DNA of 53,524 nucleotides from a virus. Location: the IMG/VR virus record IMGVR_UViG_3300027770_002684, positions 1-53,524 of that record; one strand, written 5' to 3'. Every line of letters starts with the position of its first letter. Positions within the stretch are counted from its first letter, which is position 1. The position numbers and the translations under genes were made by a program. Under the pieces are notes generated by a model. It was given only the letters and a program-made list of their open reading frames with translations. It was not told where the DNA came from and did not search any database. This document shows positions 12,290 to 41,965 of this stretch, piece by piece.

Positions 12290-12297
12290 CATAAATA
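12290..12297 (+). promoter_or_regulatory. T4-type late promoter-like motif (CATAAATA)
   Basis: Seven of eight bases match TATAAATA, 20 bases before the ATG at 12317. It lies in the divergent gap between the asparagine-synthase-like gene and the first oxygenase pair. Confidence 0.4.
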
Positions 12298-12316: not shown

Positions 12317-12847
12317 ATGGATCCATTTTTCTACAAATTACCTTTTAGATTGTTAGACGACAAAACAGAAAATCTTATCGTTGAAAAAGCAATGGAAAAC
12401 CCGTCTGAATTTTTTGCCTACAAAGGACAGATCAGTGGAAAAGAAGATGGTAATTATATATTTGTTCGAGGCTTTTTAAGAGAACTAGAAAGTGTGCAAA
12501 AATTAATGAAGTCTTGTACAGTAGAATGTTATCCGTTAGTTATGAGACAATATCCGAATACTCTTGGCCCAATCCATATTGACAATCCCAATGGCAGGAA
12601 TTGTGTTATTATTAGCCCATTAATCCCTAAGGTAAATTATGTTCCTACTCACTTTTGGGAAAGTTTTGATTCAACTGTTCCGATAGCCGCTGCTGATTTT
12701 TCAGATAGGATGCCTGCGTTGATCAACACTCAAAGATTACATAATATAACTAACAACAGTAGTCTTAGAATGAACTTTCAACTATGTTTTGAAAAATCGT
12801 TTAACGAAATACAAAATTTATTAATAGACAAAAAATTGTTTAAATGA
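12317..12847 (+). CDS. 2OG-Fe(II) oxygenase-like protein 1
   Basis: This 176-residue protein has GPIHIDN with H87-x-D89, H142 in LHNITNN and R151 in LRMNFQL. This is the facial triad plus the 2-oxoglutarate-anchoring Arg of double-stranded beta-helix oxygenases. The fold inference rests on these residues and on hydrophobic alternation. It overlaps the next oxygenase-like gene by four bases (ATGA), and the two form a coupled pair. Substrate unknown. Confidence 0.6.
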   Translation: MDPFFYKLPFRLLDDKTENLIVEKAMENPSEFFAYKGQISGKEDGNYIFVRGFLRELESVQKLMKSCTVECYPLVMRQYPNTLGPIHIDNPNGRNCVIISPLIPKVNYVPTHFWESFDSTVPIAAADFSDRMPALINTQRLHNITNNSSLRMNFQLCFEKSFNEIQNLLIDKKLFK

Positions 12848-13359
12848 ATCAAGACAACTATTATTATCAATTAAATACAAAATGTGAAATATGTGATCAA
12901 TTGATAGATTACGCTAATCAAATTAAGATCTATTCTGTAGTCACTTTTATGCAGAAAATTGTTCCTCTTGAAATTATCAAACAAGATCCTGTAATGTTGT
13001 ATTTTTATGATACTGGATGGACTATAAAGATACTCAAAATGGAGCCTTTTACTTTTTACGACTGGCATAGAGATTCCCGTGTAAGAGGCTGTGCAGTTAA
13101 TTTATTACTAGATGCTGAAAGATGCACTACTCTATTTCGAGCAGATACGTATGATCTTCCTCGACAAAAACGTTTTGTTGAATTGAGTTATCTACCAAAT
13201 ACTTATTATATGTTTAATACAGCAGCCGAGCATTGCGTTGCAAATTTTAAATCTATTAGATATTCAGTTTCGATGTTCCCTCCACATAATTCTAATTTTG
13301 AGGAAGAAACAAAAGATTATTTTAAATATACAAATGAAATAAAAGAAATAGGTTTATAA
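12844..13359 (+). CDS. 2OG-Fe(II) oxygenase-like protein 2
   Basis: This 171-residue protein has FYDWHRDSR with H75-x-D77, H130 in AAEHCVANFKS and R139 in IRYSVSMFPP. It starts inside the stop of the preceding gene and converges, with a six-base overlap, on the third oxygenase-like gene. The N-terminal 60 residues have no recognised match. Confidence 0.6.
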   Translation: MNQDNYYYQLNTKCEICDQLIDYANQIKIYSVVTFMQKIVPLEIIKQDPVMLYFYDTGWTIKILKMEPFTFYDWHRDSRVRGCAVNLLLDAERCTTLFRADTYDLPRQKRFVELSYLPNTYYMFNTAAEHCVANFKSIRYSVSMFPPHNSNFEEETKDYFKYTNEIKEIGL

Positions 13360-13896
13360 AAATTTTTCTAATGTTTCTACAAATGCAAAAGTAAAAGCAG
13401 TTCGTGGAAAATCTTTAGGATCACTGCTGGTTCTCTCTACTGCATGAGGTTCTTCCACCCTAATAACTGTTGGGCCAACAATACATGTCCTTGCTATCTC
13501 TTTACAATCTTGCAATCGATAGGAAACATACGGAACTCCATTAGGTAGTATTTCAGTTATTTTGTCTTTAGGGTCAGCCTCATACCAAACAGTTTCTACA
13601 CTTTGTGGATTAATAAGAGGCCACTGTAATCTACACGGGTGCGGCGAATTATCTATATGAATGTTTCTGTTGGTGTCGTGTACAACTCCAATCATAAAGA
13701 TACCCTTAAAGTGCAACCCTAGTTTTTCAAATCCGTTAAGAACAGTGGGGCACATCTCGATGAATTTATCTTTAGATGGAAAACTAAAGAAGTTCTTAAT
13801 ATTGGTTTTATTGGGATACAGATAATTAAAATATATTTGTATCTCGTTATTGGATTGTTCAAAGTTTGGAAAGTCAATCTTTTGAAAGTATTTCAT
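13354..13896 (-). CDS. 2OG-Fe(II) oxygenase-like protein 3
   Basis: This 180-residue protein has RNIHIDNSPHPCRLQWPL with H80-x-D82, EEPHAVER with H151 and R165 in PRTAFTFAF. The segment CRLQWPLIN after the first motif mirrors the R-x-H/Q-x-P-L strand of the asparaginyl-hydroxylase-like members. Its start lies 23 bases inside the end of the next minus gene (13874), so the pair is overlapping and probably co-translated. Confidence 0.65.
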   Translation of the reverse strand: MKYFQKIDFPNFEQSNNEIQIYFNYLYPNKTNIKNFFSFPSKDKFIEMCPTVLNGFEKLGLHFKGIFMIGVVHDTNRNIHIDNSPHPCRLQWPLINPQSVETVWYEADPKDKITEILPNGVPYVSYRLQDCKEIARTCIVGPTVIRVEEPHAVERTSSDPKDFPRTAFTFAFVETLEKFL

Positions 13897-14542
13897 TTAG
13901 TTTAGTCTCATCTACAATTCCGTTAATCCTTAATTGCATTCTTTGGGAAGTTACCAATCCAACCCCATGCCAGCAGTCATCTCTAAACAAAAAACAGTCG
14001 TCATTAAATTCTACAAGATTACTGTCTATCATAGCAACCAACGATTGTCCGCCGTCTGCAATGTTTAAAGTGACACTAACATGATTATCGTAGTAAGTTG
14101 AATCTGGCGGTACATCATTGTGTACTGGTCCAAATCCTGGGGGATCTAACAACATAGATCTAACATTTTGTACGCTAGTAAATCCTAGATCTGATACAAT
14201 TTCTTTAATATAAGGGCAGTTAGCATTGTCTTTCCATGCCCAGTTCTCGTAATTAATTCTTAATAAGTTGCCACCATAGCCGGACATTATATCTCCTGGT
14301 ACATGAGTGAAGCTATACCCTTTCCAAGAAGGAAGAGAACCCGGGATAATACCGTGTTCAGTTAGCACTGTTACTTTATCATATAATGATTTTTCTACAA
14401 TATCAAATGGTCTTAAACTAAGGAATTTTTTAATTGCAGGTATTTCGGTAAACTTGTGCTGTAATATTTCCTCAGCAACTTTTTTTTTATTATAAGAAAA
14501 ATTTAATCTAGCGTATCGAATGTTAAATATTGACATACACAT
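13874..14542 (-). CDS. 2OG-Fe(II) oxygenase-like protein 4
   Basis: Up to 222 residues, with ATGs at 14542 and 14536 both possible. GFGPVHNDVPP carries H141-x-D143, CWHGVGL carries H192 and QRMQLRI carries R201. The middle VSVTLNIADGG is the strand after the first His. It is divergent from the AspH-like gene at 14565, and the gap holds the AT-rich motif AATAAATA on minus. Confidence 0.65.
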   Translation of the reverse strand: MCMSIFNIRYARLNFSYNKKKVAEEILQHKFTEIPAIKKFLSLRPFDIVEKSLYDKVTVLTEHGIIPGSLPSWKGYSFTHVPGDIMSGYGGNLLRINYENWAWKDNANCPYIKEIVSDLGFTSVQNVRSMLLDPPGFGPVHNDVPPDSTYYDNHVSVTLNIADGGQSLVAMIDSNLVEFNDDCFLFRDDCWHGVGLVTSQRMQLRINGIVDETKLNEILSKD

Positions 14543-14564
14543 ATTTATTAAAGAGATTTACACC

Positions 14565-15200
14565 ATGCCATTTTATGACCCATCCAGTTGGAAACTTGTA
14601 CAAGTTATTCAAGAAAACAAAGAAGCAATTATAGATGAATTTAATAGGGCCGTTGATCTTAAATTAATTCAAGAAAAATTTAACGCAACAACAAGTTTTG
14701 ATGAAAAATTATATAAAGGGTATGTTGGGTTTCTTGGTGTTACTATGGATGTTGACCTTTGGTCGCCGGAAGAAAAGAAAGTTTACACCCAAGACCTACA
14801 GAAGCAATTTGATACAAATAGAAAATTGTGCCCAGTGGCTAGTTCTATCATTGATCAGTTTCCCTACATTAGGCAATTATTTTGGAATACATTACCCAGT
14901 AAAGGTCAAATAAGACCGCATTACGGAGTTAACGGGAAGGCATGGGGTAAAATACCCGATCATGCACGATTACAGTTTTGTTGGGAGCCCGGAGAAAAAT
15001 GTACATTCTTTTTAGAAAACGAATGTATCGAATATGTTGAAGATTTATGTTTCGGCTTTCACGACGGAATGGATTTGCACTGGGTTAAGAATAACGGAGA
15101 TAAAATTAGATCTGTTTTAATATTAGATCTTTGGGAAAATCAATGCGAACCAATTCCGTGGGGCAATATGAATACCATTAAAGGAACTTTTACTTTTTAA
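14565..15200 (+). CDS. Aspartyl/asparaginyl beta-hydroxylase (AspH)-like oxygenase 5
   Basis: I chose the ATG at 14565 (AAAGAG upstream) over 14520, giving 211 residues. IRPHYGVNG has H119 followed by Tyr-Gly, so the triad carboxylate is replaced by Gly. The well-known AspH family has the same His-x-Gly. H172 and R182 follow in LHWVKNNGDKIRSVLILDLWE, close to the AspH C-terminal pattern (H, then R-x-x-x-x-V-D-x-W). Of the set, this one most resembles a true AspH domain. Its substrate could be a protein side chain. Confidence 0.8.
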   Translation: MPFYDPSSWKLVQVIQENKEAIIDEFNRAVDLKLIQEKFNATTSFDEKLYKGYVGFLGVTMDVDLWSPEEKKVYTQDLQKQFDTNRKLCPVASSIIDQFPYIRQLFWNTLPSKGQIRPHYGVNGKAWGKIPDHARLQFCWEPGEKCTFFLENECIEYVEDLCFGFHDGMDLHWVKNNGDKIRSVLILDLWENQCEPIPWGNMNTIKGTFTF

Positions 15201-15873
15201 AAAGGTCTATTACTATATGATATCGCCATGTATCCCCGTCATTGATATTTTTGTGACTAATATCAGTATTGAACCAATATCCTCTGCCGTCTGCTGGCAA
15301 ATGAAAATAGAGATCGTTATCATTTTTAGGAGACAACTCATACCATTTTTTAGGTCCCTCGTTCCAAACTATATAACATTCTTCGTTAGTTACAAGAGGG
15401 ATATGGTATCTTAAATTGTTCCCCCATCTACCAGGATAGCTATCAATATGCCATCCTCCTCTATGAGTTGGACCACATTCCATTATCCTTCCTCTATAGG
15501 TATGATACCCTAGGTCTTCTAAATAGTCAAGTATCCTGCCTAATTCTCCAGTGCATAGTTCTTTATGCCTAACAGATATAGGTAATAGTTTTTCTAAATG
15601 CCTTCCTAAGTTTTCAACTCCGATCGGTTTAACAGAGTTATCCGTTGTATCTAAAAACATTATTCCTTGCTTAGGGCCTGTTGTATAGTCGGCATCATCT
15701 AACCCCTGAAATCCAATGCCTCCGTATCTTGATTCAGATTTAAATTCTTGACTAAATTTTTTGTATTTTGAAAAGGAAGAAAAATATAAATCTTTTAACT
15801 CTTCTAGATTAAAAGTTATATTTGTATCGGGCCAACACAAGTGATTCCAGTTACTTAGATCTATTTTGCTCAT
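15190..15873 (-). CDS. 2OG-Fe(II) oxygenase-like protein 6
   Basis: This 227-residue protein has GGWHIDSYPG with H142-x-D144, then LRYHIPLVTNEECYIVW, then SHKNINDGDTWRYHIVID with H207 and R217. The R-x-H-x-P-L-x-T-N strand and the H-x-x-x-N...R-x-H-x-x-x-D end match the aspartyl/asparaginyl-hydroxylase-like pattern closely. It overlaps the gene at 15851 by 23 bases. Confidence 0.75.
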   Translation of the reverse strand: MSKIDLSNWNHLCWPDTNITFNLEELKDLYFSSFSKYKKFSQEFKSESRYGGIGFQGLDDADYTTGPKQGIMFLDTTDNSVKPIGVENLGRHLEKLLPISVRHKELCTGELGRILDYLEDLGYHTYRGRIMECGPTHRGGWHIDSYPGRWGNNLRYHIPLVTNEECYIVWNEGPKKWYELSPKNDNDLYFHLPADGRGYWFNTDISHKNINDGDTWRYHIVIDLFKK

Positions 15874-16579
15874 AATTTTTATTTAGTAGAGTTGATAACG
15901 TCTCTGTTACCTTCTTAGAATAGTCCATCATATGCGGAAGGTTATGATGAAAGTAATTAATTTTAGATTTGTTTAAAATATTTAGAATATCTTGATCAAT
16001 AAAATCTATAATAATATGGGTACGAGATGCTGCTCCTAGGTTAACGCTCCTGTGCAGAATCAAGTTATTGATATTCCAAATGCCACCTTCAGTCATATGA
16101 TTTTTTTGATACGTTGTATCTTCTAAAAATATTTCATAGGTTGCTTGGTCGTTTGTCTGTAAAGGAATGTGAATTTTATTACTAAATTGTTGATACAGAT
16201 AGGTATCGACGTGCCACTTTAATTTTTGTCCAGGTAATATTGTTGCTATTTGTAAAAGCGTTGGATCTGAATTGGGCAGATATTTTTGTACTTCTTCTAT
16301 TAAGGGTCTGCAAATTTCTAACAGTTCCTGATCAAAGTCCAGTGAAGAATACAACTGTTTAGATGTCATCATGTGAGGAGTTTTTACAACTATTCTCCTT
16401 GTTTCATAAAATACAAATTCTTTGGTAGAATAGATATCATCCTCTAGGTCATACTTGTTAAAGATAACAGATTTAACTTTATTAAAAACATCTAATGGAA
16501 TATCTGCAATCTTTACAACTGAAATAGGATTTCCTAGCTTGTTACATTTGTTCTCTAATATTAATTGGTCTATGTTCAT
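15851..16579 (-). CDS. 2OG-Fe(II) oxygenase-like protein 7
   Basis: This 242-residue protein has LKWHVDTYLYQ with H123-x-D125, then KIHIPLQTNDQATYEIF, then LHRSVNLGAASRTHIIID with H176 and R186. The core is near-collinear with the proteins at 17886 and 18463, so these three are likely recent paralogues. It is followed by a 45-residue tail ending in basic residues. It overlaps the GNAT-like gene upstream by 38 bases. Confidence 0.78.
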   Translation of the reverse strand: MNIDQLILENKCNKLGNPISVVKIADIPLDVFNKVKSVIFNKYDLEDDIYSTKEFVFYETRRIVVKTPHMMTSKQLYSSLDFDQELLEICRPLIEEVQKYLPNSDPTLLQIATILPGQKLKWHVDTYLYQQFSNKIHIPLQTNDQATYEIFLEDTTYQKNHMTEGGIWNINNLILHRSVNLGAASRTHIIIDFIDQDILNILNKSKINYFHHNLPHMMDYSKKVTETLSTLLNKNYEQNRSK

Positions 16580-17135
16580 TTTTTAATATTGCTGATTTGA
16601 TGAGAACATCGTGTTCTTTAATAAAGGTTCCAAACACATTTTTGTGCTCAGGCCATTCTGGCATTGTTCCTGCCGGTATAATACAGTCATAAAATATTTC
16701 ATACCTATACCAAACATCTGTAGTCTTATAAGTTCTGCGTTGTGTTCTTGCCCAGGCCAGTGGCATGGACCAAACTATTTTATAAATCCCTGCTTCTTCT
16801 GCTCTGTTCATGGCATATTTCCAACAATGTTCTAGCCCATTTAATTTATAGTTCCATCGACAGCTACTATTGGTTCCTAACATTATCATGTACCACATAG
16901 GTCCGCGGCCGGTAAATTGTTGCATCAAAAATGATCTAAGTTCGTTATTTTCAAAATACCCTATAACCCTACCAAGATCTTTATTTGGGTATGGCTCAAG
17001 AAATTTTGCAACACCATTTCTAAAATAATCTAAATCGTAGTTCTTTATATTAATTCCGGTAATTTTATTTTTAGGTTCGATGATATGCATGATCGAATCT
17101 AAATCATCGATGGTTAAATCTCTTACGTTGTCCAT
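16542..17135 (-). CDS. GNAT-like protein
   Basis: This 197-residue protein has GRVIGYFENNELRSFLMQQF (about 54-73), PMWYMIMLGTNSS and LEHCWKYAMNRAEEAGIYKIVWSMPL. That is a strand, strand, helix, strand order as in GNAT folds. It is similar in layout to the protein at 10738. It lies in a minus run with three oxygenase-like genes and overlaps both neighbours. Confidence 0.5.
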   Translation of the reverse strand: MDNVRDLTIDDLDSIMHIIEPKNKITGINIKNYDLDYFRNGVAKFLEPYPNKDLGRVIGYFENNELRSFLMQQFTGRGPMWYMIMLGTNSSCRWNYKLNGLEHCWKYAMNRAEEAGIYKIVWSMPLAWARTQRRTYKTTDVWYRYEIFYDCIIPAGTMPEWPEHKNVFGTFIKEHDVLIKSAILKNEHRPINIREQM

Positions 17136-17872
17136 GAATTTAATCCTGTTCGGTTTAAAAAATCTTCTGAAAATTTTCCGTCGAATCGAATACTAAAACA
17201 AGAAGTATCAGATGGGTCACTTCCGTGTACATTTGCCGAGTCAAAGAATGCAACTTTTGATTCTACATAATGTTTAGTATCGTTATCTTTAACATAAAAT
17301 CTTTTCCTCATCAAAGGATTAATCCATATAAAATTATCTTTTCTGCTGATACCGTCCGGGTAATCTCTATGCTCTATTGTTTTAGAAAAAGGATCATTTA
17401 AAAAAATAATTATTCTGCCTACTTCTTCAAAAACATTTTGAGAATCGACCCAATCTATTAATGGTTTGAAATTTTTTATTGCTGGAAAATCTATACTATC
17501 TTTTGCACTATTTTTAGTGTCGTAACTAGATCCTACCCTTAATAGAATACAATGCCCTAGAACATGGCTAGGCCATTTGTATTGTATGAAAGTTTGAGGT
17601 TCCCAATCTTTTAGAGAAGTTAATAGATTATAGTACGGATGAGACGGGTCTGTAGATATTTCCCTATAAATCTCTGGAACAGATTTTTTTGTTTTATCAA
17701 CATATCCTGGACCTGAATTTGTCGGTCCAGCAGTTGTTCTAGATTTAGCAATCCCTAGAATAATGTCGTCGATTATTGCATCCAAAGAGGGAATGTCTAA
17801 AAATTCATCTAGTGATAGATAGGGGTTGTCAAACACAAAGTACATTTTATTTTTCAAATTTTTGTTATTCAT
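17123..17872 (-). CDS. 2OG-Fe(II) oxygenase-like protein 8 (subtype shared with 19181)
   Basis: This 249-residue protein has VGRIIIFLNDPFSKTIEHRDYPD with H168-x-D170, FIWINPLMRKRFYV, H216 in NVHGSDPSDTSC and R229 in FSIRFDGKFSEDFL. The same order and spacing recurs in the protein at 19181 on the other strand. The two form a distinct subfamily with HGS-x-P in place of H-x-x-x-N. The start is three bases from a palindromic TATAAATATTTAT element. Confidence 0.7.
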   Translation of the reverse strand: MNNKNLKNKMYFVFDNPYLSLDEFLDIPSLDAIIDDIILGIAKSRTTAGPTNSGPGYVDKTKKSVPEIYREISTDPSHPYYNLLTSLKDWEPQTFIQYKWPSHVLGHCILLRVGSSYDTKNSAKDSIDFPAIKNFKPLIDWVDSQNVFEEVGRIIIFLNDPFSKTIEHRDYPDGISRKDNFIWINPLMRKRFYVKDNDTKHYVESKVAFFDSANVHGSDPSDTSCFSIRFDGKFSEDFLNRTGLNSWTT

Positions 17873-17885
17873 AAATATTTATACT

Positions 17886-18461
17886 ATGTTTTTTGATGCC
17901 AATTTAAAAGAGATAACTAATATTCCATCTAGTGTTTTGAAAAATCTTACGAACAAAGTTAAATTTATCAACTGGAATCTTCCGGACTTTGACAGGAAAG
18001 AAGTAACTCTGGTAGAGGGACGGCTTTGCCTCTTACCATTTTTAATATCTAAATCGGATCAATTAACCGATACAGCCAGTAGGAAAAAGATTTGGTCTGC
18101 AGCATCTCCAATTATTGAATTTATCAAGGATACAATGCCAGATGAAAAAATTATTAGGGGTGAAGTTGTTAATCTAATTCCAAATCGATCGTTGACTCCG
18201 CACATTGATATATATTGGTTTCATCGAGAGTCGAGAAGAATACATATTCCAATTATTACAAATGATCAATGTTTTTTAACTTTTGAAGATAGACAGTATC
18301 ATTTAGCAGTTGGGTCAATATATGAAATGAACAATAGAATACTTCATTCTGCAGTTAATAACGGTTTAACTAACAGAGTACATGTTATTTTAGATGTCAT
18401 GAATTTAAATATGTATAACCATGCACTATTGACCAAACAAAATTTTATGGAAGTAGTGTAA
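17886..18461 (+). CDS. 2OG-Fe(II) oxygenase-like protein 9 (Asp/Asn hydroxylase-like)
   Basis: I chose the ATG at 17886, giving 191 residues; a longer frame would overlap the divergent gene. LTPHIDIYWF carries H106-x-D108, RRIHIPIITNDQCFLTFE follows, and RILHSAVNNGLTNRVHVILD carries H154 and R164. This is a nearly complete Asp/Asn-hydroxylase-type core. One base separates its stop from the next gene. Confidence 0.8.
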   Translation: MFFDANLKEITNIPSSVLKNLTNKVKFINWNLPDFDRKEVTLVEGRLCLLPFLISKSDQLTDTASRKKIWSAASPIIEFIKDTMPDEKIIRGEVVNLIPNRSLTPHIDIYWFHRESRRIHIPIITNDQCFLTFEDRQYHLAVGSIYEMNNRILHSAVNNGLTNRVHVILDVMNLNMYNHALLTKQNFMEVV

Positions 18462-18462
18462 A

Positions 18463-19188
18463 ATGAAACTAACGCAGCCCATTGTAGAATTACAACAATG
18501 TCCAGATGAATTATTTCAATATCTTAAAGAAACATTCATCAACAATACTAACTGGAACAGTTCTGACCTATTAACTAAGGAAGAAGCATTTTACGACCAG
18601 TCATTTAGATACGAAGCTATTACAAAATACTTTAACGCAAAATCTTTTTTCTTTAGTAAACTGCCACCTACTCAAGAAACTACTGATAAGATTAAACCGT
18701 ATACTGATTACTTAATGAATACATTGTTTCCCGAACACGCATTATTTCGTTGTCAGATAGTGTGTTTAAAACCTGGACAAAATGTTTATCCACATACTGA
18801 TCCTAGATATTATCACATTTATGGTAAGAGAATTCATTTACCCTTGTTAATTAACGATGAGTCATTTCATATACATTTTCCACCCGAGCAAGATTACGAT
18901 ATGAAATTTTCTAAAATGCATGAAGGTATAATTACTGACTTTGATAATATCACTCCCCATGCTGCCTTTAACTATGGAACAACTAATCGTATACATATCA
19001 TATGCGATGTTGTTAAAAAAGATACCGTATTAAAAATAGAAGCGGCCGCTGGAGGAAATTCTAATGCAACTAGTCAGCAAGTAGTTGATGAATATTATGT
19101 GCATCTAAGTAAGATAGAAGAACGGTATAACTGTAAGTATACCGAACTAAAAGATTACTACTTAGAAAGTATGCCAAAGAATGAATAA
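18463..19188 (+). CDS. 2OG-Fe(II) oxygenase-like protein 10 (Asp/Asn hydroxylase-like)
   Basis: This 241-residue protein has VYPHTDPRYYHIYGKRIHLP with H111-x-D113, then LLINDESFHIHF, then TPHAAFNYGTTNRIHIICDV with H166 and R176. A C-terminal extension of about 55 residues (AAAGGNSNATSQQ..., then a charged helix) is absent from its closest relatives at 15851 and 17886. The gene overlaps the next by eight bases. Confidence 0.78.
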   Translation: MKLTQPIVELQQCPDELFQYLKETFINNTNWNSSDLLTKEEAFYDQSFRYEAITKYFNAKSFFFSKLPPTQETTDKIKPYTDYLMNTLFPEHALFRCQIVCLKPGQNVYPHTDPRYYHIYGKRIHLPLLINDESFHIHFPPEQDYDMKFSKMHEGIITDFDNITPHAAFNYGTTNRIHIICDVVKKDTVLKIEAAAGGNSNATSQQVVDEYYVHLSKIEERYNCKYTELKDYYLESMPKNE

Positions 19189-19963
19189 TCAAAATTATAA
19201 AATAAATGATCAATACTCTATCTGCTTAGATGAGTATTTTGATATTGGTAGATTACACAATATTTTTCCTGATATTGTTAAAGGTTTAGTACAGTCAAAA
19301 CAATATTTTGAGCCAATTGAAATTGGAAACCAACAGGCTATTTTTAATAAAGAACATATAGAACCTAAGTTATATATTAAAGATGTGTTCTCTCAAACTG
19401 AGGAATACGCTAATTTAGTAGAAGCAGGATTTACTGAAGGACAAATATACGATTATGTATTACTCAGGTCTCCTGTTAAAACACTAGGAACAAAGTTATT
19501 ATTAAGAACTTACCCTAATTACAGTAAGGCATTTGGCGCAAAGCACCATGCTAGATTAAACAAAGATCAGCCTGCTTACGAACATTTTCCTAAATTAAAA
19601 GAATGGATTGCAAATTGCGGCGCTTTTAAGAGCGTAGGTCGTATACTATTTTTTATAAACGAACTAGGATCTTATACTCCTACGCATTGTGATTATGCAA
19701 ACTTAACTTCATTAAAAGATCAATTTATTTGGATTAACCTATACCAGAAGAAATCTTTCTTTGTTCTTAACAAGGACTGGGGAAAACACTACTTAACTGG
19801 CGAGATAAATACATTTGATAACGCAACATGGCACGGTTCCGAACCAGCCAAATACAGTTGTTTTACCATAAGAATTGACGGATTATTCAGTGACAATTTT
19901 TTAATTAAAACAGGACTAGACAAACATTATGCAACTTCCAAAACTGCTCAAGAGAGTAATTAA
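19181..19963 (+). CDS. 2OG-Fe(II) oxygenase-like protein 11 (subtype shared with 17123)
   Basis: This 260-residue protein has VGRILFFINELGSYTPTHCDY with H169-x-D171, FIWINLYQKKSFFV, WHGSEPAKYSCFTIRIDG with H218 and R231, then FSDNFLIKTGL. It aligns along most of its length with the minus-strand protein at 17123, including MNN at the N-terminus. Its end overlaps the second desaturase by 35 bases. Confidence 0.72.
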   Translation: MNNQNYKINDQYSICLDEYFDIGRLHNIFPDIVKGLVQSKQYFEPIEIGNQQAIFNKEHIEPKLYIKDVFSQTEEYANLVEAGFTEGQIYDYVLLRSPVKTLGTKLLLRTYPNYSKAFGAKHHARLNKDQPAYEHFPKLKEWIANCGAFKSVGRILFFINELGSYTPTHCDYANLTSLKDQFIWINLYQKKSFFVLNKDWGKHYLTGEINTFDNATWHGSEPAKYSCFTIRIDGLFSDNFLIKTGLDKHYATSKTAQESN

Positions 19964-20753
19964 GGGTAACAACCCTACTACGTTACTTGTCTTTAATCTA
20001 TACTTGTTTGCAGTATTAATTGCCGGCGCATTTGTTGTACCGTTTAGTGTTGGGTGGTTATCTGTATCATTGTTCATGTATTTCTTAATGATATGTTGTG
20101 GTATTAGTATAACTTATCATAGGGCATTGACACATAAAGCACTGGTAATGCCTAAGTGGTTAGAGCGAACATTTTCTACTTTTGCCTGTATGGCAGGCAC
20201 AGGAAGTCCTATAATGTGGGTTATGACGCATCGTCAACATCACAGGCATGCAGACAAAGATGGAGATCCTCATCCACCATCAGCAGTTTACAAAACAATA
20301 TTTGGAATTTATCCAAGGGTAAATGGACATATTAGAGATATTGTAGCAGACAAATATTATAGAATTTGGCATAGGAACTATTTTGGTATCTTATCTGTCT
20401 ATGCCGCATTGGTATATCTTGTATTCGGATTTACTGCTTTGTATTTTATTGTAGTACTGCCTATGGTTGCTAGCGTTTTCATTAGTAATGCTTTAAACTG
20501 GTACGGACATAAATCATCGTTGGTAGGTTATAGAAATTATGATTTAAAGGATCATAGCCAAAATAATGTAGTTATGGCGTTACTTGCATTTGGAGAAGGA
20601 TGGCATAACAATCATCATCGTCACCCGGGAAGCGCAAAATTTGGAATAACGGCATCTGAAATTGATATATCGTTTGTTGTTATCAATCTGTTAGAAAAGT
20701 TAGGGTTAGTAAATAATATTAGACTACCTAATGAAAAATTTAAAAGGATTTAA
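19929..20753 (+). CDS. Membrane fatty acid desaturase no. 2
   Basis: This 274-residue protein has histidine boxes HRALTH at 64-69, HRQHHRH at 101-107 and HNNHH at 226-230, with hydrophobic segments at about 19-62 and 150-190. It differs clearly from the desaturase at 9894 in box 2 and in the N-terminal region, so this is not a recent duplication. Both should act on acyl chains at the membrane. Keeping two suggests different acyl substrates or positions. It is translationally nested in the end of the oxygenase gene upstream. Confidence 0.93.
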   Translation: MQLPKLLKRVIKGNNPTTLLVFNLYLFAVLIAGAFVVPFSVGWLSVSLFMYFLMICCGISITYHRALTHKALVMPKWLERTFSTFACMAGTGSPIMWVMTHRQHHRHADKDGDPHPPSAVYKTIFGIYPRVNGHIRDIVADKYYRIWHRNYFGILSVYAALVYLVFGFTALYFIVVLPMVASVFISNALNWYGHKSSLVGYRNYDLKDHSQNNVVMALLAFGEGWHNNHHRHPGSAKFGITASEIDISFVVINLLEKLGLVNNIRLPNEKFKRI

Positions 20754-20755
20754 CT

Positions 20756-21061
20756 ATGTACAAAGTAACAACGATTTTTGAAAGACCAAATGACAGTATT
20801 CCGTACTACATTGGAACTCAGCCTGAATTAATAGATAGATTTGCAGAATTCACTTCAAATGCATCTGAACTATTATACGTAGATATGTTAGATGAAACTT
20901 CTACTAGACAGGTAACTCAAGCATTCTATGCAAATGAAGCGGCCTTTAATATTTTTATTGAAAAATATAACACCGAATTTCTTAATTTCTTTGAGGAAAG
21001 AGATGCATACCATGCAAGTGTAGGTATTACTACATCTCGTACAGTAACCGTTGAGGAATAA
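20756..21061 (+). CDS. Hypothetical 101-residue protein
   Basis: It starts two bases after the desaturase stop and ends where the convergent radical SAM gene ends. The sequence (MYKVTTIFERPNDSIPYYI..., NIFIEKYNTEFLNFFEERDAYH) suggests a small alpha/beta fold, perhaps a ferredoxin-like dimer like the antibiotic-monooxygenase group. I see no decisive motif. It is probably co-transcribed with the desaturase. Confidence 0.6.
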   Translation: MYKVTTIFERPNDSIPYYIGTQPELIDRFAEFTSNASELLYVDMLDETSTRQVTQAFYANEAAFNIFIEKYNTEFLNFFEERDAYHASVGITTSRTVTVEE

Positions 21062-22069
21062 CTATAAGGGCTGGAATTTAAATTTAGGCTCTTGTAAATC
21101 CATAAGACATGTACACCATTGAGATGTACATGTCACATCATCATTAACAAATCCAAAATCATCGTCGTTAATGTTTCCAATAATACCCCCAACTCTACAT
21201 ACTCCTCGATAGATTAATTCGTGCTGTATTGTAATAAGATCGCGCCCGATTGAACATTTCCAGCCCTTATAGTTATTCCTCTTGTGTTCTACAATCTCAT
21301 AAACACTTTCAGTATTAGCACTGCCGTCGTCGTATTCAACATTCATCTTGGTTCCATATTGTGAAGACATTGGTATAAATGCCATCTTTTTTGTTGATCG
21401 AAGTTTACCAGGTCTAGAAATGTTTTCTAATAACAACTTGGTTTGTTCAGGTGTGTATTGTGCAATCTCTCTAGGACTAAACGAACCGTTGGTATAGTAG
21501 AATATTGCCTTTAAACTAGAGATAGCCCCTGTATTTTCTAAGAACAGTTGATGTCGTCTGTTGCCTTCTTCAAGTAATGTTATGGGAGCAGTGACTTGAA
21601 TGCGAACATCTGTGGCAGTATCATGAAACATATTGGCTACATCTATTGTATGCTGTTCGTCTTTATCTTGTTCTGTATGATGCGTTAGGAATAAAATGTC
21701 TAACACATTCATTTCTGCTAATTCTTTCCACCATCTCAGTGTTCTACTACCGTTGCTAATTATAGCAACCTTATGACCGTTCTCTCTAATAAATGCAAGT
21801 AATTCAGGAAGCCTTGGATATAGTGTTGGCTCTCCGCCAGTAATTTGAAACCAAATGAACTTATTTTCTTTTTCTGCCTGCACCATTAATTTTTTAGATA
21901 CTTGTTTATACTTGTCAATTGAATGCCATCTTTCGGTACCTATTTTGTTTTCATCTCCACAAAATGAGCAATCGAAATTACATACATTATGAATCTTCCA
22001 TTCTACTGTTTTGTATTTTCTTGGAATCGCTCTTTTTATTTTAATTGGGATTACTTTTTTATTGGTCAT
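21062..22069 (-). CDS. Radical SAM protein with C-terminal cysteine module
   Basis: 335 residues from the ATG at 22069 (AGGA upstream). CNFDCSFC with C30, C34 and C37 binds the 4Fe-4S cluster, and GGEP at 78-81 contacts SAM. Residues about 268-326 form a Cys-rich module: WKCSIG, then YRGVCRVGGIIGNI, then CTSQWCTC, with C272, C291, C314, C319 and C321. It probably holds auxiliary clusters. The same module is at the N-terminus of the radical SAM protein at 29319. Substrate unknown; protein or peptide modification is one option. Confidence 0.88.
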   Translation of the reverse strand: MTNKKVIPIKIKRAIPRKYKTVEWKIHNVCNFDCSFCGDENKIGTERWHSIDKYKQVSKKLMVQAEKENKFIWFQITGGEPTLYPRLPELLAFIRENGHKVAIISNGSRTLRWWKELAEMNVLDILFLTHHTEQDKDEQHTIDVANMFHDTATDVRIQVTAPITLLEEGNRRHQLFLENTGAISSLKAIFYYTNGSFSPREIAQYTPEQTKLLLENISRPGKLRSTKKMAFIPMSSQYGTKMNVEYDDGSANTESVYEIVEHKRNNYKGWKCSIGRDLITIQHELIYRGVCRVGGIIGNINDDDFGFVNDDVTCTSQWCTCLMDLQEPKFKFQPL

Positions 22070-22116
22070 CAATCATTCCTATTATGTAGGTATTTATTAT
22101 ATGGATAAGACACGTT

Positions 22117-22124
22117 AATAAATA
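22117..22124 (+). promoter_or_regulatory. T4-type late promoter-like motif (AATAAATA)
   Basis: Seven of eight bases match TATAAATA, 19 bases before the ATG at 22144 and followed by a good ribosome site (ACGGAG). Confidence 0.4.
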
Positions 22125-22143
22125 TTTACGGAGAAACAGATAC

Positions 22144-22767
22144 ATGTTATATCAATTGAATTTGCCCCCGTTACCTGACAATATTATTAATGAAGTTCTA
22201 GAATATTCAAAACAAACTCTACGTGCCCTTGACTTATTTTCTAAAAATCATTATGCATCTAACATAGGGTATAAAGGTCTTTACGATTCTGAAAATATTG
22301 TTTCGAGACATTTAACTAACACCCACTTTAAGAGTATTGGATTGCAAAAATGGTTTCAAGAGTTATTGCCTATAGTCTGGTACGAAGAACTTTTTATTAT
22401 GAAAAATGAAGGAAATGGTCCGGCAATATTCCCACCTCATACTAATAAGGAAAGAAGAGTTGCAATAAACTATGTGTTTGCCACTGGCGGAGACAAAGTA
22501 ATTACATCAACATTTATGGGCCCCGAAGATGCCAATATTAGTAGGTCAAGATATTATCACGAAGACGATTTAGAAATTGATAGTGAAAATATCCTACCTG
22601 TTAATAGCTGGTATATTTTTAACGCTCAGAAACCGCATTCTGTTAAGAACATAGAATCTATTAGAATATTATTAGTGCTAAGTACTAAAGATAATTTAAC
22701 TCTTGAAAATTTTATCAAAAAATATCCAGAATTATTAAAATTAGATATTAATAATCATTCCTGTTAA
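22144..22767 (+). CDS. 2OG-Fe(II) oxygenase-like protein 12 (variant triad)
   Basis: This 207-residue protein has FPPHTNKERRVAINYVF, where the usual Asp of H-x-D is Asn101. H165 and R174 follow in KPHSVKNIESIRILLVLS. The Asn variant could weaken iron binding or indicate a halogenase-like or inactive site. The strand after the first His and the tail still match the family. The first of three consecutive plus-strand oxygenase-like genes. Confidence 0.6.
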   Translation: MLYQLNLPPLPDNIINEVLEYSKQTLRALDLFSKNHYASNIGYKGLYDSENIVSRHLTNTHFKSIGLQKWFQELLPIVWYEELFIMKNEGNGPAIFPPHTNKERRVAINYVFATGGDKVITSTFMGPEDANISRSRYYHEDDLEIDSENILPVNSWYIFNAQKPHSVKNIESIRILLVLSTKDNLTLENFIKKYPELLKLDINNHSC

Positions 22768-22776
22768 ATACGCAAC

Positions 22777-22784
22777 CATAAATA
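22777..22784 (+). promoter_or_regulatory. T4-type late promoter-like motif (CATAAATA)
   Basis: Seven of eight bases match, but the ATG follows after only four bases, so a promoter here would give a leaderless or truncated message. Weak support. Confidence 0.25.
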
Positions 22785-22788
22785 TACG

Positions 22789-23313
22789 ATGCCAAAATTC
22801 TATCAACCTTTAGATCTTATAAAATTTCCATTTGCTGATTATAGAAAAGAAAAACAATATTATTCAAGTCCAGTAAGTAACTTGGGGGAAGAGTTTATAA
22901 ATTTCCTTGCTACGAAAGAATTAATAGTAAATTATATTTTAGTAATATGGAGACCTCCAGGTGGCGTCTTACTTGTTCACAGCGATGGACAAGACTATAA
23001 TCCAAATTGGGCAAGGCTTAATTATATCCATGGCGGTCCAGGAACAGTGTCTTGGTGGCTCCCAAATGATGAAAGATACGTTCCAGAAATGAGCGGCATA
23101 TACCACCATGCTAAACGGTGGCCTATGGATAAAATCTATAAAGCAGAAGAAACAGACTTACAAGGTTTTAATATTATGAATGTAGGAACTCCTCATGGTG
23201 TTAATAATGTGCAGAATGATAGGTGGGCAGTTAGTTTGAGTTTGATTTATAATAATACAGAATATACATCTTTCTCTCAGTTATCTAATATTTTTTCAGA
23301 CCATGCAAGATAA
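22789..23313 (+). CDS. 2OG-Fe(II) oxygenase-like protein 13
   Basis: This 174-residue protein has VLLVHSDGQDY with H64-x-D66, TPHGVNNVQNDRWAVSLSL with H136 and R145, and the intervening strand GTVSWWLPN. The short N-terminus and the WRPPGG turn before the first His are distinctive. It has no obvious ribosome site; the upstream gene ends 21 bases before. Confidence 0.6.
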   Translation: MPKFYQPLDLIKFPFADYRKEKQYYSSPVSNLGEEFINFLATKELIVNYILVIWRPPGGVLLVHSDGQDYNPNWARLNYIHGGPGTVSWWLPNDERYVPEMSGIYHHAKRWPMDKIYKAEETDLQGFNIMNVGTPHGVNNVQNDRWAVSLSLIYNNTEYTSFSQLSNIFSDHAR

Positions 23314-23328
23314 AATTACTCTAACCTA

Positions 23329-23886
23329 ATGGTACCATCTACATATTATTGCAAATCTGTTACTATTAAGACACACTCTAGTGTTATTGATTATATTTTT
23401 AATCAGTATAGCCGTATCATTGAACATAAGGAAGATAGCTTCCCTATAAATTTAAGTAATAATGATATAGAAGAATTAAATACACTTTTAAAAGAAAACA
23501 CGTCGGTCTGGTTTCAAGATCCTTCAATTAAATTAATAAGCGGACTACTGTTCTTTTTACAACCGTATGAAAATCAACCAATTCATATAGATGCCCAAAC
23601 TAAACACAGTATGCATACCTCATTAAATATTCCGCTAGTAAACTGCGAAAGAGGCGTAATGAGTTGGTACTCTGGTAATTATTTTGAAGAAGAAATAATA
23701 TTAGATAGCGGCATCCGTTACTTTAAATTAAAAATTGAAGACCAAAAAATTTTATATAATCAGATAATTGATTCTCCTTATGTTGTTAGAACTAACATAC
23801 CACATAATGTGCAAAACAATTTAGATAAAAAAAGAATCATGTTGGCACTCCGATATAATAAAAACATACCAGAATTAGTAATATAA
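23329..23886 (+). CDS. 2OG-Fe(II) oxygenase-like protein 14
   Basis: This 185-residue protein has NQPIHIDAQTKHS with H86-x-D88, LNIPLVNCERGVMSWY, and IPHNVQNNLDKKRIMLALR with H159 and R169. The spacing between the two His residues is longer than in the Asp/Asn-hydroxylase-like members because of an insertion rich in charged residues. Confidence 0.65.
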   Translation: MVPSTYYCKSVTIKTHSSVIDYIFNQYSRIIEHKEDSFPINLSNNDIEELNTLLKENTSVWFQDPSIKLISGLLFFLQPYENQPIHIDAQTKHSMHTSLNIPLVNCERGVMSWYSGNYFEEEIILDSGIRYFKLKIEDQKILYNQIIDSPYVVRTNIPHNVQNNLDKKRIMLALRYNKNIPELVI

Positions 23887-23972
23887 TATGAACGATATAA
23901 AAAAAGTATATCAAAATATAAAGATCAATCTTTCATAGATGATTCTTATACTACTAACAACTACTGCTACTT

Positions 23973-25406
23973 ATGAACGTTATTTTTCTTAACAGTATTA
24001 TCATTAAAGAAATTCCTATGCGACCTTACGGACCGTATCTGCTAAGGCATCATCTAGAAAAGAGAGGATACACTGCACAAGTAATTGATTTTTGTTATTA
24101 TTTTTCTGAAGATGAGATTGTATCGTTTGTTACAAAATTTGTAAATGATAATACAATTTGCTTAGGTGTATCTACTACATTCTTAATGGCTAAAAATTTA
24201 CAAGAAAAAATCTGTAAGGTAGTTGCAAGGATAAAAGAAAAATTTCCATACTTAAAAATATTACTCGGTGGCCCTAATGCTCATAGAGTTACTGGAGATA
24301 TTCCTAGTGCAGAATATGTATGTATAGGAGATTGCGAAGATCTTCTTCCTGATTTATTAGATCATTGGATAAAAGGCACCCCGGAACCCTTTGGACAGTA
24401 TGATATTTCAACTAAAAGAAAATTTTATAAGGCTCCACTTAATAAAACTTTTAATATTGAACAATCAAACTTTACATGGAGCTATCGAGATTGTATTGTT
24501 CCTGGAGAATCTTTGCCATTAGAAACATCAAGAGGTTGTATCTTTAAATGTAAGTTTTGTGCATACCCGCTGTTAGGAAAAAAGAAATTTGATTATTTAA
24601 GAAGTGTCGAAATGATACGCCAGGAAATGATTAAAAACTTTGAAGAATTTGGTGTAAACAGTTATTACATGTTAGATGACACATTTAATGATAGTGAATT
24701 TAAAATAGATGCATTCTGCGAAATGGTCAAGACCTTACCGTTTGCCATTAACTTTACTGCATATATACGCATGGATTTATTAGCACGATTTGAAGGACAA
24801 GCAGAAAAATTAAAAAATGCAGGAATGCGAGCTGCTTTTTTTGGAATAGAAACATTTCATATTGAGGCAAGCAATGCAATTGGCAAAGGATGGCATGGTA
24901 AAAATGCCAAAGCATACTTAGAAGATCTTTTAAATAAGATCTGGAAAGATGATGTTTATATCACTGCTAGTTTTATTGCAGGATTGCCATTTGAAGATAA
25001 AGATAGTATAGAAAACACCCTAGAATATCTTCGCAGAGAAAAAAGAATTAACGCCCTTATGTGGCCTCTACAGATACATAAAACATCTGATCAGTGGGCC
25101 TATCATAGCGAATTTGAAAAAAATATTGATCAATATGGTTATACAATTAACAACGACGGTACATGGTATAACAACTTATGGACATCATCAGAAGTAACCA
25201 AAATATCGAGAGATTGGTTTCAAAGTGATCACAGAGGTAGTAGTTGGGATTTTAGTTGTTGGGACTATATAGGTCTGTTAGGTTTAGGATACACTCAACA
25301 ACAGATTGAGTCTGCTAAAATTAATAAATCAGTATTAATTGATTTTGTCGAACGGAAATCTAAATTTCTAATGTTTTATAAAGAAAAATTAATCAATTTG
25401 TCGTAA
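23973..25406 (+). CDS. B12-binding-type radical SAM protein (Elp3/B12-like)
   Basis: This 477-residue protein has an N-terminal Rossmann-like domain of the cobalamin-binding type (MNVIFLNSI, GVSTTFLMAKN, ILLGGPNAHRV, YVCIGDCEDLLPDLL). The radical SAM core follows with RGCIFKCKFC, using C189, C193 and C196, then FFGIETFH and ASFIAGLPFEDKDSIENTL. No clear D-x-H-x-x-G is visible, so cobalamin may not bind base-off. Relatives do methylations or ring rearrangements. The C-terminal 100 residues are not recognised. It is alone on plus between oxygenase-like genes. Confidence 0.88.
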   Translation: MNVIFLNSIIIKEIPMRPYGPYLLRHHLEKRGYTAQVIDFCYYFSEDEIVSFVTKFVNDNTICLGVSTTFLMAKNLQEKICKVVARIKEKFPYLKILLGGPNAHRVTGDIPSAEYVCIGDCEDLLPDLLDHWIKGTPEPFGQYDISTKRKFYKAPLNKTFNIEQSNFTWSYRDCIVPGESLPLETSRGCIFKCKFCAYPLLGKKKFDYLRSVEMIRQEMIKNFEEFGVNSYYMLDDTFNDSEFKIDAFCEMVKTLPFAINFTAYIRMDLLARFEGQAEKLKNAGMRAAFFGIETFHIEASNAIGKGWHGKNAKAYLEDLLNKIWKDDVYITASFIAGLPFEDKDSIENTLEYLRREKRINALMWPLQIHKTSDQWAYHSEFEKNIDQYGYTINNDGTWYNNLWTSSEVTKISRDWFQSDHRGSSWDFSCWDYIGLLGLGYTQQQIESAKINKSVLIDFVERKSKFLMFYKEKLINLS

Positions 25407-25407
25407 G

Positions 25408-25428
25408 ATGTTTCTCTTAAAGAAGCAT
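25408..25428. terminator. Possible bidirectional terminator hairpin
   Basis: ATGTTTCT, loop CTTAA, AGAAGCAT (one wobble pair), in the gap between convergent genes ending at 25406 and 25434. AT-rich flanks give short U runs both ways. Confidence 0.4.
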
Positions 25429-25433
25429 TTAAA

Positions 25434-26018
25434 TTATAATTTTCCTAAAATCACTGCAACTAAATGAATCCTTGAATTCTTACTGCCATTGAATGCTGTA
25501 TGTTTTTTTGTGGTATCGGTCATGTACCATTTATTATATTCTAAATGCATCACTTCATCCTCAATTACCATAAAACAGCCACTATGCGTTGATAATGGAT
25601 AATGTAATCTGCCACTATTATCATTATGCCAACTTAAACAAGTATTCGGATCTGATTTCATTATTCTAACTCTACCTAATATGTATTGTTGATTCAGCAT
25701 ATTATATATAGTTTCAAAAACAGTTCCTTTAAATTGATCGCATAGTACTGTAAATTCTGATTCAGTTAATTGATTTATTTTTTTGGAAACTTTAATTTTA
25801 GTAATGGTGTTACTAACTGACTGAGTATTACTATTTTCCCAATCAAGTGTTAAACTACCTGCTCCTAACAAGAAGTTGTCACCGTGCTCAGGTAATGAAT
25901 TTAAACAAATTTGATTACGAGTACCCCAATTTAGTTTGTTTAAACTTAATAATTTACTAAGTTCTACTAAAGGCTCGTAATTATATCTAGGTAAATCTAA
26001 CTCAATAAAATTTTTCAT
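25434..26018 (-). CDS. 2OG-Fe(II) oxygenase-like protein 15
   Basis: This 194-residue protein has CLSWHNDNSGRLHYPLSTHS with H131-x-D133, VIEDEVMHLEYNKWYMTD, and KKHTAFNGSKNSRIHLVAVI with H173 and R183. The strand RLHYPLSTH and the ending match the Asp/Asn-hydroxylase-like pattern. Its ATG overlaps the stop of the aminotransferase-like gene (TAATG), suggesting that the two enzymes act together. Confidence 0.75.
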   Translation of the reverse strand: MKNFIELDLPRYNYEPLVELSKLLSLNKLNWGTRNQICLNSLPEHGDNFLLGAGSLTLDWENSNTQSVSNTITKIKVSKKINQLTESEFTVLCDQFKGTVFETIYNMLNQQYILGRVRIMKSDPNTCLSWHNDNSGRLHYPLSTHSGCFMVIEDEVMHLEYNKWYMTDTTKKHTAFNGSKNSRIHLVAVILGKL

Positions 26019-26854
26019 TATATATAATTTAAATCTAAATCATTTTGAATACTATCTTTTAAAAAATCAGTTATACAAATTTTATCATTGTTTTTATCAA
26101 AAGCCCACATCCATATGTCGGCAGGAGTAAGATTATTTTTTAAACAATACTCAAGTTGATGTTTTTTTGCATATTGAGTAATATAGGTTGGTTTAAATTT
26201 AGATAGTATTGTTGTTGCACATCTAACTGCCGGGAGATTGAAATAATTGTAATTATAATGAGTACTGATGGGCACAGTAAGAGTTTTTGCAAGGTCGTCT
26301 CCAAATACTATTCCCGACCTCCAACCTGCTAGGAGAAAGTTCTTACTTAAACTAAATGCCACTGCATCAAACACTGAGTCTGATGTATCTAATGTATCGA
26401 ATGTTGTTCCATAAAACGCACAGTCTAAGAAAATTTTGGTATTGTTTTTTCTACAATGTGATTTTAGACTTTCAAACCAAGGAGTGATATTGCCTTCGTG
26501 ATTTGGTTGACTCACTATCACGTAACTGTTACTTTTTATGCTGTCTATGTCGCTTGGCGATATAATTTTATAATTATATGATTGTAACATTGTAGGGTAA
26601 AATTTGTAATCAGTGTCAAATATATAAAATGTGTCAATATACTTAGATTTGTAAGATATCTGATTTATAATTGCATCATGTATTCCATTACAAACTGCCC
26701 ACTCTTTTTTAGTTTCACACCCTTTGAAATCTTTTATCCAATTTTTCCACAGAATCCTGTATTCTATTAAATCAGAAATGTCGCCTTTGTTTCTAATTTT
26801 TATTTTTGATAATTCTTTTTGAATTTGTGTTGGGCAAAAGCTCCATACGGACAT
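26018..26854 (-). CDS. Compact PLP-dependent aminotransferase (class I/II-like)
   Basis: This 278-residue protein has YVIVSQPNHEGNITPWF at about 111-127 (equivalent to the N-P-x-N-P-T-G turn), FLDCAFYGTTF with D144 and Y148, and AFSLSKNFLLAGWRSGIVFG with the PLP Lys171 and R179. These are the hallmarks of fold-type I aminotransferases. It is about 100 residues shorter than usual because the C-terminal small domain is minimal. It may be a minimal transaminase or a non-catalytic PLP binder. It is coupled to oxygenase-like protein 15. Confidence 0.75.
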   Translation of the reverse strand: MSVWSFCPTQIQKELSKIKIRNKGDISDLIEYRILWKNWIKDFKGCETKKEWAVCNGIHDAIINQISYKSKYIDTFYIFDTDYKFYPTMLQSYNYKIISPSDIDSIKSNSYVIVSQPNHEGNITPWFESLKSHCRKNNTKIFLDCAFYGTTFDTLDTSDSVFDAVAFSLSKNFLLAGWRSGIVFGDDLAKTLTVPISTHYNYNYFNLPAVRCATTILSKFKPTYITQYAKKHQLEYCLKNNLTPADIWMWAFDKNNDKICITDFLKDSIQNDLDLNYI

Positions 26855-26900
26855 AATATTTTACATTCCTAATGAACTATTTATGTTCATTAACCACTAA

Positions 26901-26908
26901 TATAAATA
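26901..26908 (+). promoter_or_regulatory. T4-type late promoter motif (TATAAATA)
   Basis: An exact TATAAATA, 17 bases before the ATG at 26926, with a ribosome site AAAAGGAAA between them. This is the best-placed late-type motif in the island. Confidence 0.5.
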
Positions 26909-33952: not shown

Positions 33953-33953
33953 T

Positions 33954-35537: not shown

Positions 35538-35538
35538 A

Positions 35539-36348: not shown

Positions 36349-36435
36349 GTTGGTTTTATCTAATACAATATTTAGCCAATATTATTTTCTCCGGTATTGA
36401 CTTAACAATTAAATACGCTTATAATAAACAAATAT

Positions 36436-37209: not shown

Positions 37210-37211
37210 TC

Positions 37212-38635: not shown

Positions 38636-38645
38636 TTTTTATCCT

Positions 38646-39782: not shown

Positions 39783-39784
39783 AT

Positions 39785-39813
39785 GTTATTTTTCCAGGTT
39801 TTTAGTATTTATT
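39785..39813 (-). promoter_or_regulatory. Conserved leader with late promoter-like AATAAATA
   Basis: On minus, AATAAATA then TTAAAAACCTGGAAAA before the start at 39782. The same arrangement with two base changes lies before the fibre gene starting at 41963. Confidence 0.5.
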
Positions 39814-39822
39814 GTTTAAATT

Positions 39823-40587: not shown

Positions 40588-40625
40588 TTTTTATCCTTTT
40601 GGAAAACTCATTTTAAATACTTTTT

Positions 40626-41963: not shown

Positions 41964-41965
41964 CT

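Follow-up and report, generated by a model that had tools for sequence, protein, structure and literature searches.

Among the 'auxiliary metabolic genes' that lack an explanation, those for phage-encoded Fe(II)/2-oxoglutarate (2OG)-dependent oxygenases rank with the commonest in water. Up to five 2OG genes per phage have been listed for cyanophages (PMC3037559), cyanophage S-SZBM1 has nine scattered copies (PMC9146016), and structural matches to prolyl hydroxylase have been described in marine phages (PMC12774648). Here we describe, in a phage of aquatic bacteria, an array of 15 oxygenase-like genes within 14 kb, at positions 12317-26018 of virus record IMGVR_UViG_3300027770_002684. The window analysed is this whole record of 53,524 bases, which is classed as a linear sequence, a class that often corresponds to a fragment.

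An array of 15 oxygenase-like genes

The array genes were named g01 to g15 by coordinate order and are listed with the evidence for each; L007 is a contig of another phage, and hhalign values are probabilities from profile-profile comparison.

12317-12847, plus strand: g01, 2OG oxygenase-like, no Pfam match, H-x-D/H/R (hhalign 97.5% to g02/g03; L007 ortholog; triad columns)
12844-13359, plus strand: g02, 2OG oxygenase-like, clade B (g02, g03, g12, g13, g14) (iterative hidden Markov model with g12/g14; hhalign 99.8% to g03)
13354-13896, minus strand: g03, 2OG oxygenase-like, clade B (phmmer 4e-8 to g14; hhalign 98.9% to g07)
13874-14542, minus strand: g04, 2OG oxygenase-like, own clade (AlphaFold2 model and Foldseek; hhalign 95.9% to g08)
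14520-15200, plus strand: g05, Asp_Arg_Hydrox, H-x-G variant (PF05118 3.7e-10; triad H-G-H-R)
15190-15873, minus strand: g06, Asp_Arg_Hydrox clade (PF05118 1.2e-5, above cut-off)
15851-16579, minus strand: g07, Asp_Arg_Hydrox clade (PF05118 6e-6; L007 ortholog 47%)
17123-17872, minus strand: g08, 2OG oxygenase-like, g08/g11 clade (hhalign 99.6% to g09 over 153 columns; L007 ortholog 51%)
17886-18461, plus strand: g09, Asp_Arg_Hydrox clade (PF05118 4.8e-10; profile A9 to Cpz10 1.2e-19)
18463-19188, plus strand: g10, Asp_Arg_Hydrox clade (PF05118 4e-12; L007 ortholog 58%)
19181-19963, plus strand: g11, 2OG oxygenase-like, g08/g11 clade (1e-44 to g08; L007 ortholog 62%)
22144-22767, plus strand: g12, 2OG oxygenase-like, clade B, H-x-N variant (AlphaFold2 model and Foldseek)
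22789-23313, plus strand: g13, 2OG oxygenase-like, clade B (hhalign 99.9% to g03/g14)
23329-23886, plus strand: g14, 2OG oxygenase-like, clade B (hhalign 99.9% to g03)
25434-26018, minus strand: g15, Asp_Arg_Hydrox clade (PF05118 3.5e-11; 41% identical relative in cultured phage Mosig)

All 15 open reading frames (ORFs) are present and open. For g09 the ORF caller chose a TTG start at 17826, and the ATG at 17886 was adopted. The region has a coding density of 98.3%, and 9,480 of its 13,702 bases are 2OG genes. As described in the initial annotation, adjacent genes overlap (by 1-38 nucleotides) and the 2OG genes lie on both strands. Their products are 171-260 amino acids long and lack the tetratricopeptide repeat (TPR) and membrane parts.

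The initial annotation had proposed that all 15 proteins are 2OG-Fe(II) oxygenase-like, which was borne out by profile comparison for every member and by structure prediction for two. Six (g05, g06, g07, g09, g10 and g15) exceeded the curated cut-off of PF05118 (Asp_Arg_Hydrox), so that the proposal of at least seven AspH-like members stands for these six and not for the seventh. The nine others did not reach this cut-off and gave no significant Pfam match, and none of the 15 matched PHROG 61, the usual phage 2OG family, at E values up to 0.1. Pairwise BLAST and phmmer searches linked g06/g07/g09/g10/g15, g08/g11, g03/g14 and g02/g12. The term 'near paralogues' for g07/g09/g10 and for g08/g11 was generous, as identities are 27-28% and 35%, respectively. 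Using profiles built from relatives in about 85 phage loci, iterative searches joined most members, and profile-profile comparison with hhalign gave every gene one or more partners at a probability of at least 95%, the weakest ties being g04-g08 (95.9%) and g01-g02 (97.5%). The top probability for 14 unrelated families built identically as a control was 1.8%.

The H-x-D (once H-x-N and once H-x-G), later His and Arg are present in all 15, and were in register in the profile alignments inspected. In a MAFFT alignment of 237 relatives, which confirmed this pattern, only four columns are more than 60% conserved: H (100%), D (96%), H (100%) and R (91%). Of the 15 genes in the window, 13 have H-D-H-R, g05 has H-G-H-R and g12 has H-N-H-R; the H-x-G variant occurs in AspH too. 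The motif was rejected as sole evidence for the family and is weak when taken alone, because a loose version (H-x-D/N/G...H...R) matches 814 of 1,707 unrelated ORFs.

AlphaFold2 models were obtained for two members with no Pfam match, g04 (predicted local distance difference test, pLDDT, 80; predicted template modelling score, pTM, 0.81) and g12 (pLDDT 81, pTM 0.80). In Foldseek searches the first PDB matches of both were 2OG oxygenases, with proline hydroxylases, AspH, Cpz10, AlkB and NO66 among the matches, and proline hydroxylases, NO66 and AspH at the top for g12. Template modelling (TM) scores were modest, about 0.4-0.67, and the predicted structures support a double-stranded beta-helix fold for these two; the other 13 are tied to the superfamily by profile only. 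The g08/g11 profile had no match in the PDB, and g05 alone matched nothing relevant there. Taken as a whole, the array consists of 15 distinct, intact Fe(II)/2OG-dependent oxygenase-like genes.

Relatives, selection and late-promoter-like elements

In a tree of 237 sequences the nearest relative of every window gene lies in another phage and never within the window. The proposed repeated expansion of the set within this phage was not upheld, as the tree places each window gene with genes from other phages, and recent tandem duplication within this phage is ruled out by the same tree. Eight genes (g07, a GNAT gene, g08-g11, desaturase B and a gene for a 101-amino-acid protein) form a block that contig L007/L094 repeats with the order and orientation unchanged, at identities of 39-69%. 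With nearest relatives in other phages and this block shared, it follows that the lineages separated before these phages did. The array brings together old, divergent lineages that parted long ago and that uncultivated phages share in bits and pieces. At least some of these phages are of T4 type: a T4 portal was found in six of 20 related records, and gp32 and gp59 in relative L048.

The phage origin of the sequence, assumed from the start, is supported. Counts of 2OG genes in related loci were 10 in L094, 9 in L088, 9 in L060 and 7 in L067 (within 14 kb), with one to six in most, and are not a random sample since the loci were selected by a desaturase or 2OG gene. The array had been judged unusually large, and with 15 genes against at most 10 in the loci fetched this judgement holds. 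When 2OG proteins were searched against annotated phages by tblastn, two of six queries matched, in pelagiphage Mosig and in a Limnohabitans phage record; close relatives are thus nearly absent from annotated phages, with Mosig as the main exception. A scan of genome contigs found no bacterial homologues of g08/g11. The g07/g09/g10 alignment scan (A3) and the single-protein scan with g13 returned no viral relatives, which reflects the limit of a pattern search and is not proof of absence.

Two database records deserve comment. That of Limnohabitans phage DC33 (PQ492659.1, L101), which carries a g09-like gene, is deposited as Inoviridae with a 39-kb genome, and its taxonomy looks wrong because 39 kb does not fit an inovirus. 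Over the stretch read, record CAKLQH020000002.1 (L100; 'Acinetobacter phage MD-2021a' in the deposit) resembles bacterial chromosome, with trp, folC, accD and btuB genes.

The ratio of nonsynonymous to synonymous substitution rates (dN/dS) was calculated for 84 closer pairs among the relatives, because the comparison of window genes with their L094 orthologs was saturated. The median was 0.15 and the maximum 0.34, indicating purifying selection. One could see the genes as for the most part degenerating or inactive cargo of a hypervariable island, as the array is AT-rich (GC 0.327 against 0.395 and 0.417 in the flanks) and content varies between phages. However, these dN/dS values, and the intact reading frames and H, H and R residues of all 15 genes, make this explanation, already disfavoured, highly improbable.

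The sequence ATAAATA, the late-promoter sequence of T4, is found in the window where genes of the array diverge and upstream of several fibre genes. The elements at the array are:

12290-12297, plus strand: CATAAATA, late-promoter-like element before g01, adjoined by the TAAATA element of the divergent AsnB-like gene
17870-17883: overlapping divergent ATAAATA elements, upstream of g08 (minus) and g09 (plus)
22091-22124: divergent ATAAATA elements, upstream of the radical SAM gene at 21062 (minus) and g12 (plus)
22777-22784, plus strand: CATAAATA element before g13
26878-26908: divergent ATAAATA elements, upstream of the pyridoxal phosphate (PLP) gene (minus) and the gene at 26926 (plus)

TAAATA precedes 13 of 31 array genes (5.0 expected; maximum 12 in 300 shuffles) and six of 11 fibre genes in the window, and none of 17 right-arm genes there. 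Among the relatives it lies within 60 nucleotides upstream of 53 of 102 operon-leading 2OG genes (11.3 expected; maximum 20 in 200 shuffles), and 2OG genes that closely follow another gene show no enrichment (11 of 119, with 9.7 expected). The right-arm genes instead have a strong promoter of sigma70 type (TTGACA-N17-TATAAT) in some 16 copies, which share a leader and a GGAGCAC ribosome site and mostly precede small ORFs; they mark window positions 45334-53151, which are probably the early region. As judged by sequence enrichment only, the elements fit the T4-type pattern of a TATAAATA-like -10 element before late genes and not before early genes. We infer that the 2OG genes would be expressed late, with the virion genes, from T4-type late promoters; the T4-type motif before operon-leading 2OG genes is new.

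Timing bears on the proposal that the enzymes hydroxylate nucleobases or host proteins, or draw down 2-oxoglutarate and so alter host nitrogen signalling or DNA repair. Roles of this type have been proposed for cyanophage 2OG genes (Sullivan 2010, PMC3037559), and AlkB is among the lower-ranked fold matches of g04. The late promoter elements speak against such roles, no DNA-modification neighbours were seen, and 15 lineages with conserved triads favour distinct reactions over bulk 2-oxoglutarate use, so we regard this proposal as distinctly unlikely.

Candidate substrates and neighbouring genes

The closest solved relatives of the AspH clade are small-substrate hydroxylases, ahead of the peptide hydroxylase AspH: the clade profile matched Cpz10 at 1.2e-19, L-proline cis-4-hydroxylase at 3e-15, proline 3-hydroxylase at 6e-6 and AspH at 0.09. 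Cpz10 hydroxylates a free nucleoside-amino acid, and structures of its D117G and R170A mutants have been solved (PMC9814697); in our alignment D117 and R170 fall on the conserved D and R positions. None of the 15 proteins has a clear membrane segment, the maximum 19-residue hydropathy being 1.65 against about 2.5 in the desaturases.

The genes that accompany the array are:

9894-10748, plus strand: fatty-acid desaturase A, recurrent neighbour (PF00487 4e-13; co-occurrence)
11313-12263, minus strand: AsnB/PP-loop-like ATP-dependent synthetase, recurrent neighbour (PF00733 1.4e-6)
16542-17135, minus strand: GNAT-like protein, recurrent neighbour (named by sequence look, no Pfam hit; syntenic in L007)
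19929-20753, plus strand: fatty-acid desaturase B, within the array (PF00487 5e-17; L007 ortholog 69%, same order)
20756-21061, plus strand: 101-amino-acid protein, in the conserved eight-gene block (L007 ortholog 39%)
21062-22072, minus strand: radical SAM enzyme (PF04055 1e-12)
23973-25406, plus strand: radical SAM enzyme, B12-binding type by sequence look (PF04055 7e-14)
26018-26854, minus strand: PLP aminotransferase class I/II-like (PF00155 5e-8)

Two further radical SAM enzymes are encoded nearby (28056-29312 and 29319-30362), and one of the four has an N-terminal SPASM domain.

An AsnB-like gene was present in 17 of 19 array loci and a GNAT-like gene in 16 of 19, and a desaturase also recurs. 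Gene densities were taken from loci found by 2OG query alone, which avoids circularity, and compared with 544 kb of other phage loci. Per 100 kb, these loci held 19.7 2OG, 6.1 desaturase, 4.8 AsnB-like and 3.4 GNAT genes, against 0.2, 0, 0.6 and 0 in the control. Some relatives add genes for acyl carrier protein (ACP), thioesterase, fatty-acid hydroxylase, TauD and epimerase/dehydratase, and some an AMP-ligase gene. In phage contig L008 a free-standing ACP gene (4514-4765) lies between two 2OG genes.

The small-molecule relatives, the partner genes and the lack of membrane segments lead us to lean towards small or carrier-bound substrates. Our preferred explanation, which is tentative, is that the array encodes late-expressed cytoplasmic hydroxylases whose substrates would be small amino-acid-like or acyl/carrier-bound molecules and whose reactions would be tailoring steps in a pathway that the phage encodes; its least certain part is the putative substrate and pathway. 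The genes would be transcribed late in infection from ATAAATA promoters alongside virion genes. Each enzyme would bind Fe(II) through H-x-D...H and 2-oxoglutarate through the downstream Arg, and would couple 2-oxoglutarate decarboxylation to hydroxylation of its own substrate in the cytoplasm. AsnB-like synthetases, GNATs, membrane desaturases and radical SAM enzymes would serve the same pathway, and the product may end up on the virion or on the infected-cell envelope. Such a set of intact, apparently late-expressed oxygenase genes suggests that some phages may run a sizeable oxidative tailoring pathway of their own. A wider formulation is possible: a modular late-expressed oxidative biosynthesis island in some aquatic phages, in which up to 15 different 2OG hydroxylases with desaturases, AsnB-like synthetases, GNATs and radical SAM enzymes would make a phage-specific tailored compound or surface modification, with members swapped between phages as mix-and-match parts.

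Several points weigh against the tailoring explanation. Identity to the nearest solved homologues is low and the substrate cannot be read from them; partner genes vary from phage to phage, and no fixed pathway emerges; ACP and AMP-ligase genes occur in relatives only and not in the window. As the 53.5-kb fragment yielded no T4 portal, assignment of this phage to the T4 type depends on promoters and relatives. There is also a serious rival, the main one, in virion protein substrates.

According to this rival, the targets of the oxygenases are virion proteins of the phage itself (tail fibres, adhesins), which would be altered after translation, for instance at Asn, Asp, Pro or Lys residues within repeats of collagen-like or Asn/Cys-rich type. 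Proteins are the substrates of AspH, NO66 and collagen prolyl hydroxylase. In the window, fibre/collar genes lie on either side of the array and several of them have GYTGS/GXY repeats, late-promoter elements are common to 2OG and fibre genes, and in L011 and L095 a 2OG gene lies beside Asn/Cys-rich fibre-like proteins and a radical SAM/SPASM enzyme. However, ribonucleotide reductase outnumbers tail genes among the large flanking genes of relatives, so that fibre proximity in the window is not a rule and general linkage to tail genes was not borne out. Proteins with GYTGS repeats were found only in the window among the loci scanned, which led us to reject collagen-like fibre repeats as a shared substrate, and the AspH clade is closer in sequence to small-molecule hydroxylases than to AspH. 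On this balance virion substrates seem less likely than the tailoring explanation.

Several fibre-like proteins with GYTGS/GXY collagen-like or Gly-rich repeats are encoded at window positions 31589-43954 and 2-5956, one over 1,985 amino acids. Short phage proteins that are rich in Asn and Cys, carry CNCNCAC repeats and have an N-terminus resembling that of fibres were seen at L011:7422-7838 and 7863-8267, at L095:8491-8889 and in L103-L158. A pattern scan for this type of protein returned 56 contigs. In 38 of them a member of one radical SAM/SPASM family is encoded downstream, on that strand and no more than 4 kb away, and many of the others stop before the downstream gene could be judged. 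This enzyme family was found in none of 80 other loci at E 1e-10. The pair is possibly a radical-SAM-modified virion peptide system.

The desaturases invite a different proposal, that the enzymes remodel host envelope lipids or lipopolysaccharide (lipid A acyl hydroxylation, desaturation), perhaps as a barrier to superinfection or an aid to lysis. LpxO, the lipid A hydroxylase, is an AspH family member and is membrane-bound. Two desaturases are present in the window, fatty-acid hydroxylase, ACP and thioesterase genes occur in relatives, and phage lipid desaturases were reported by Roitman 2018, according to the citing passage in PMC11480375. Unlike LpxO, the 15 proteins show no clear membrane segment, and fifteen separate lipid hydroxylations look excessive; we therefore consider lipid remodelling unlikely.

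Comparison with described oxygenases

Neither an AspH-type array nor its late-promoter signature was found reported among open-licence papers. With its intact active sites, recurring partners and late signature, the compact array poses a testable question, namely which late product gets hydroxylated. The 15 divergent small oxygenases, nine of them outside any Pfam family, are also a resource for enzyme discovery.

The array shares with the AspH family (PF05118) the H-x-D/G, distal H and Arg in the expected order, and six members over its cut-off; it differs in the nine members with no match, in its short proteins without TPR or membrane parts and in having 15 together. Cpz10 (PDB 7V4F, PMC9814697), the best solved sequence relative of the AspH clade and one of the g04 fold matches, is a single enzyme of the bacterial caprazamycin nucleoside-antibiotic cluster, and at low identity its substrate is not transferable. 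L-proline cis-4-hydroxylase and proline 3-hydroxylase (4P7W, 1E5R) are the top fold matches of the g04 and g12 models, but at about 12-14% identity and a TM-score around 0.5.

The nearest parallels in phages are the 2OG oxygenases of cyanophages and pelagiphages (PHROG 61; Sullivan 2010; S-SZBM1), which likewise occur as multiple genes in aquatic T4-like phages, whereas the window proteins have no PHROG 61 match and the published copies are scattered and not packed within 14 kb. The Pelagibacter phage Mosig EXVC030M (MT647606), assigned to Kyanoviridae and the closest of the cultured phages found, has about nine annotated 2OG-type genes, three of them Asp_Arg_Hydrox. The initial annotation's statement that aquatic phages carry single or few such genes was too low in view of Mosig and S-SZBM1. 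Mosig also has desaturase, aminotransferase, methyltransferase and MoaA-like genes near its tail fibres, as well as the g15 relative, but its 2OG genes are spread in smaller groups over tens of kb and form no array comparable to that of the window.

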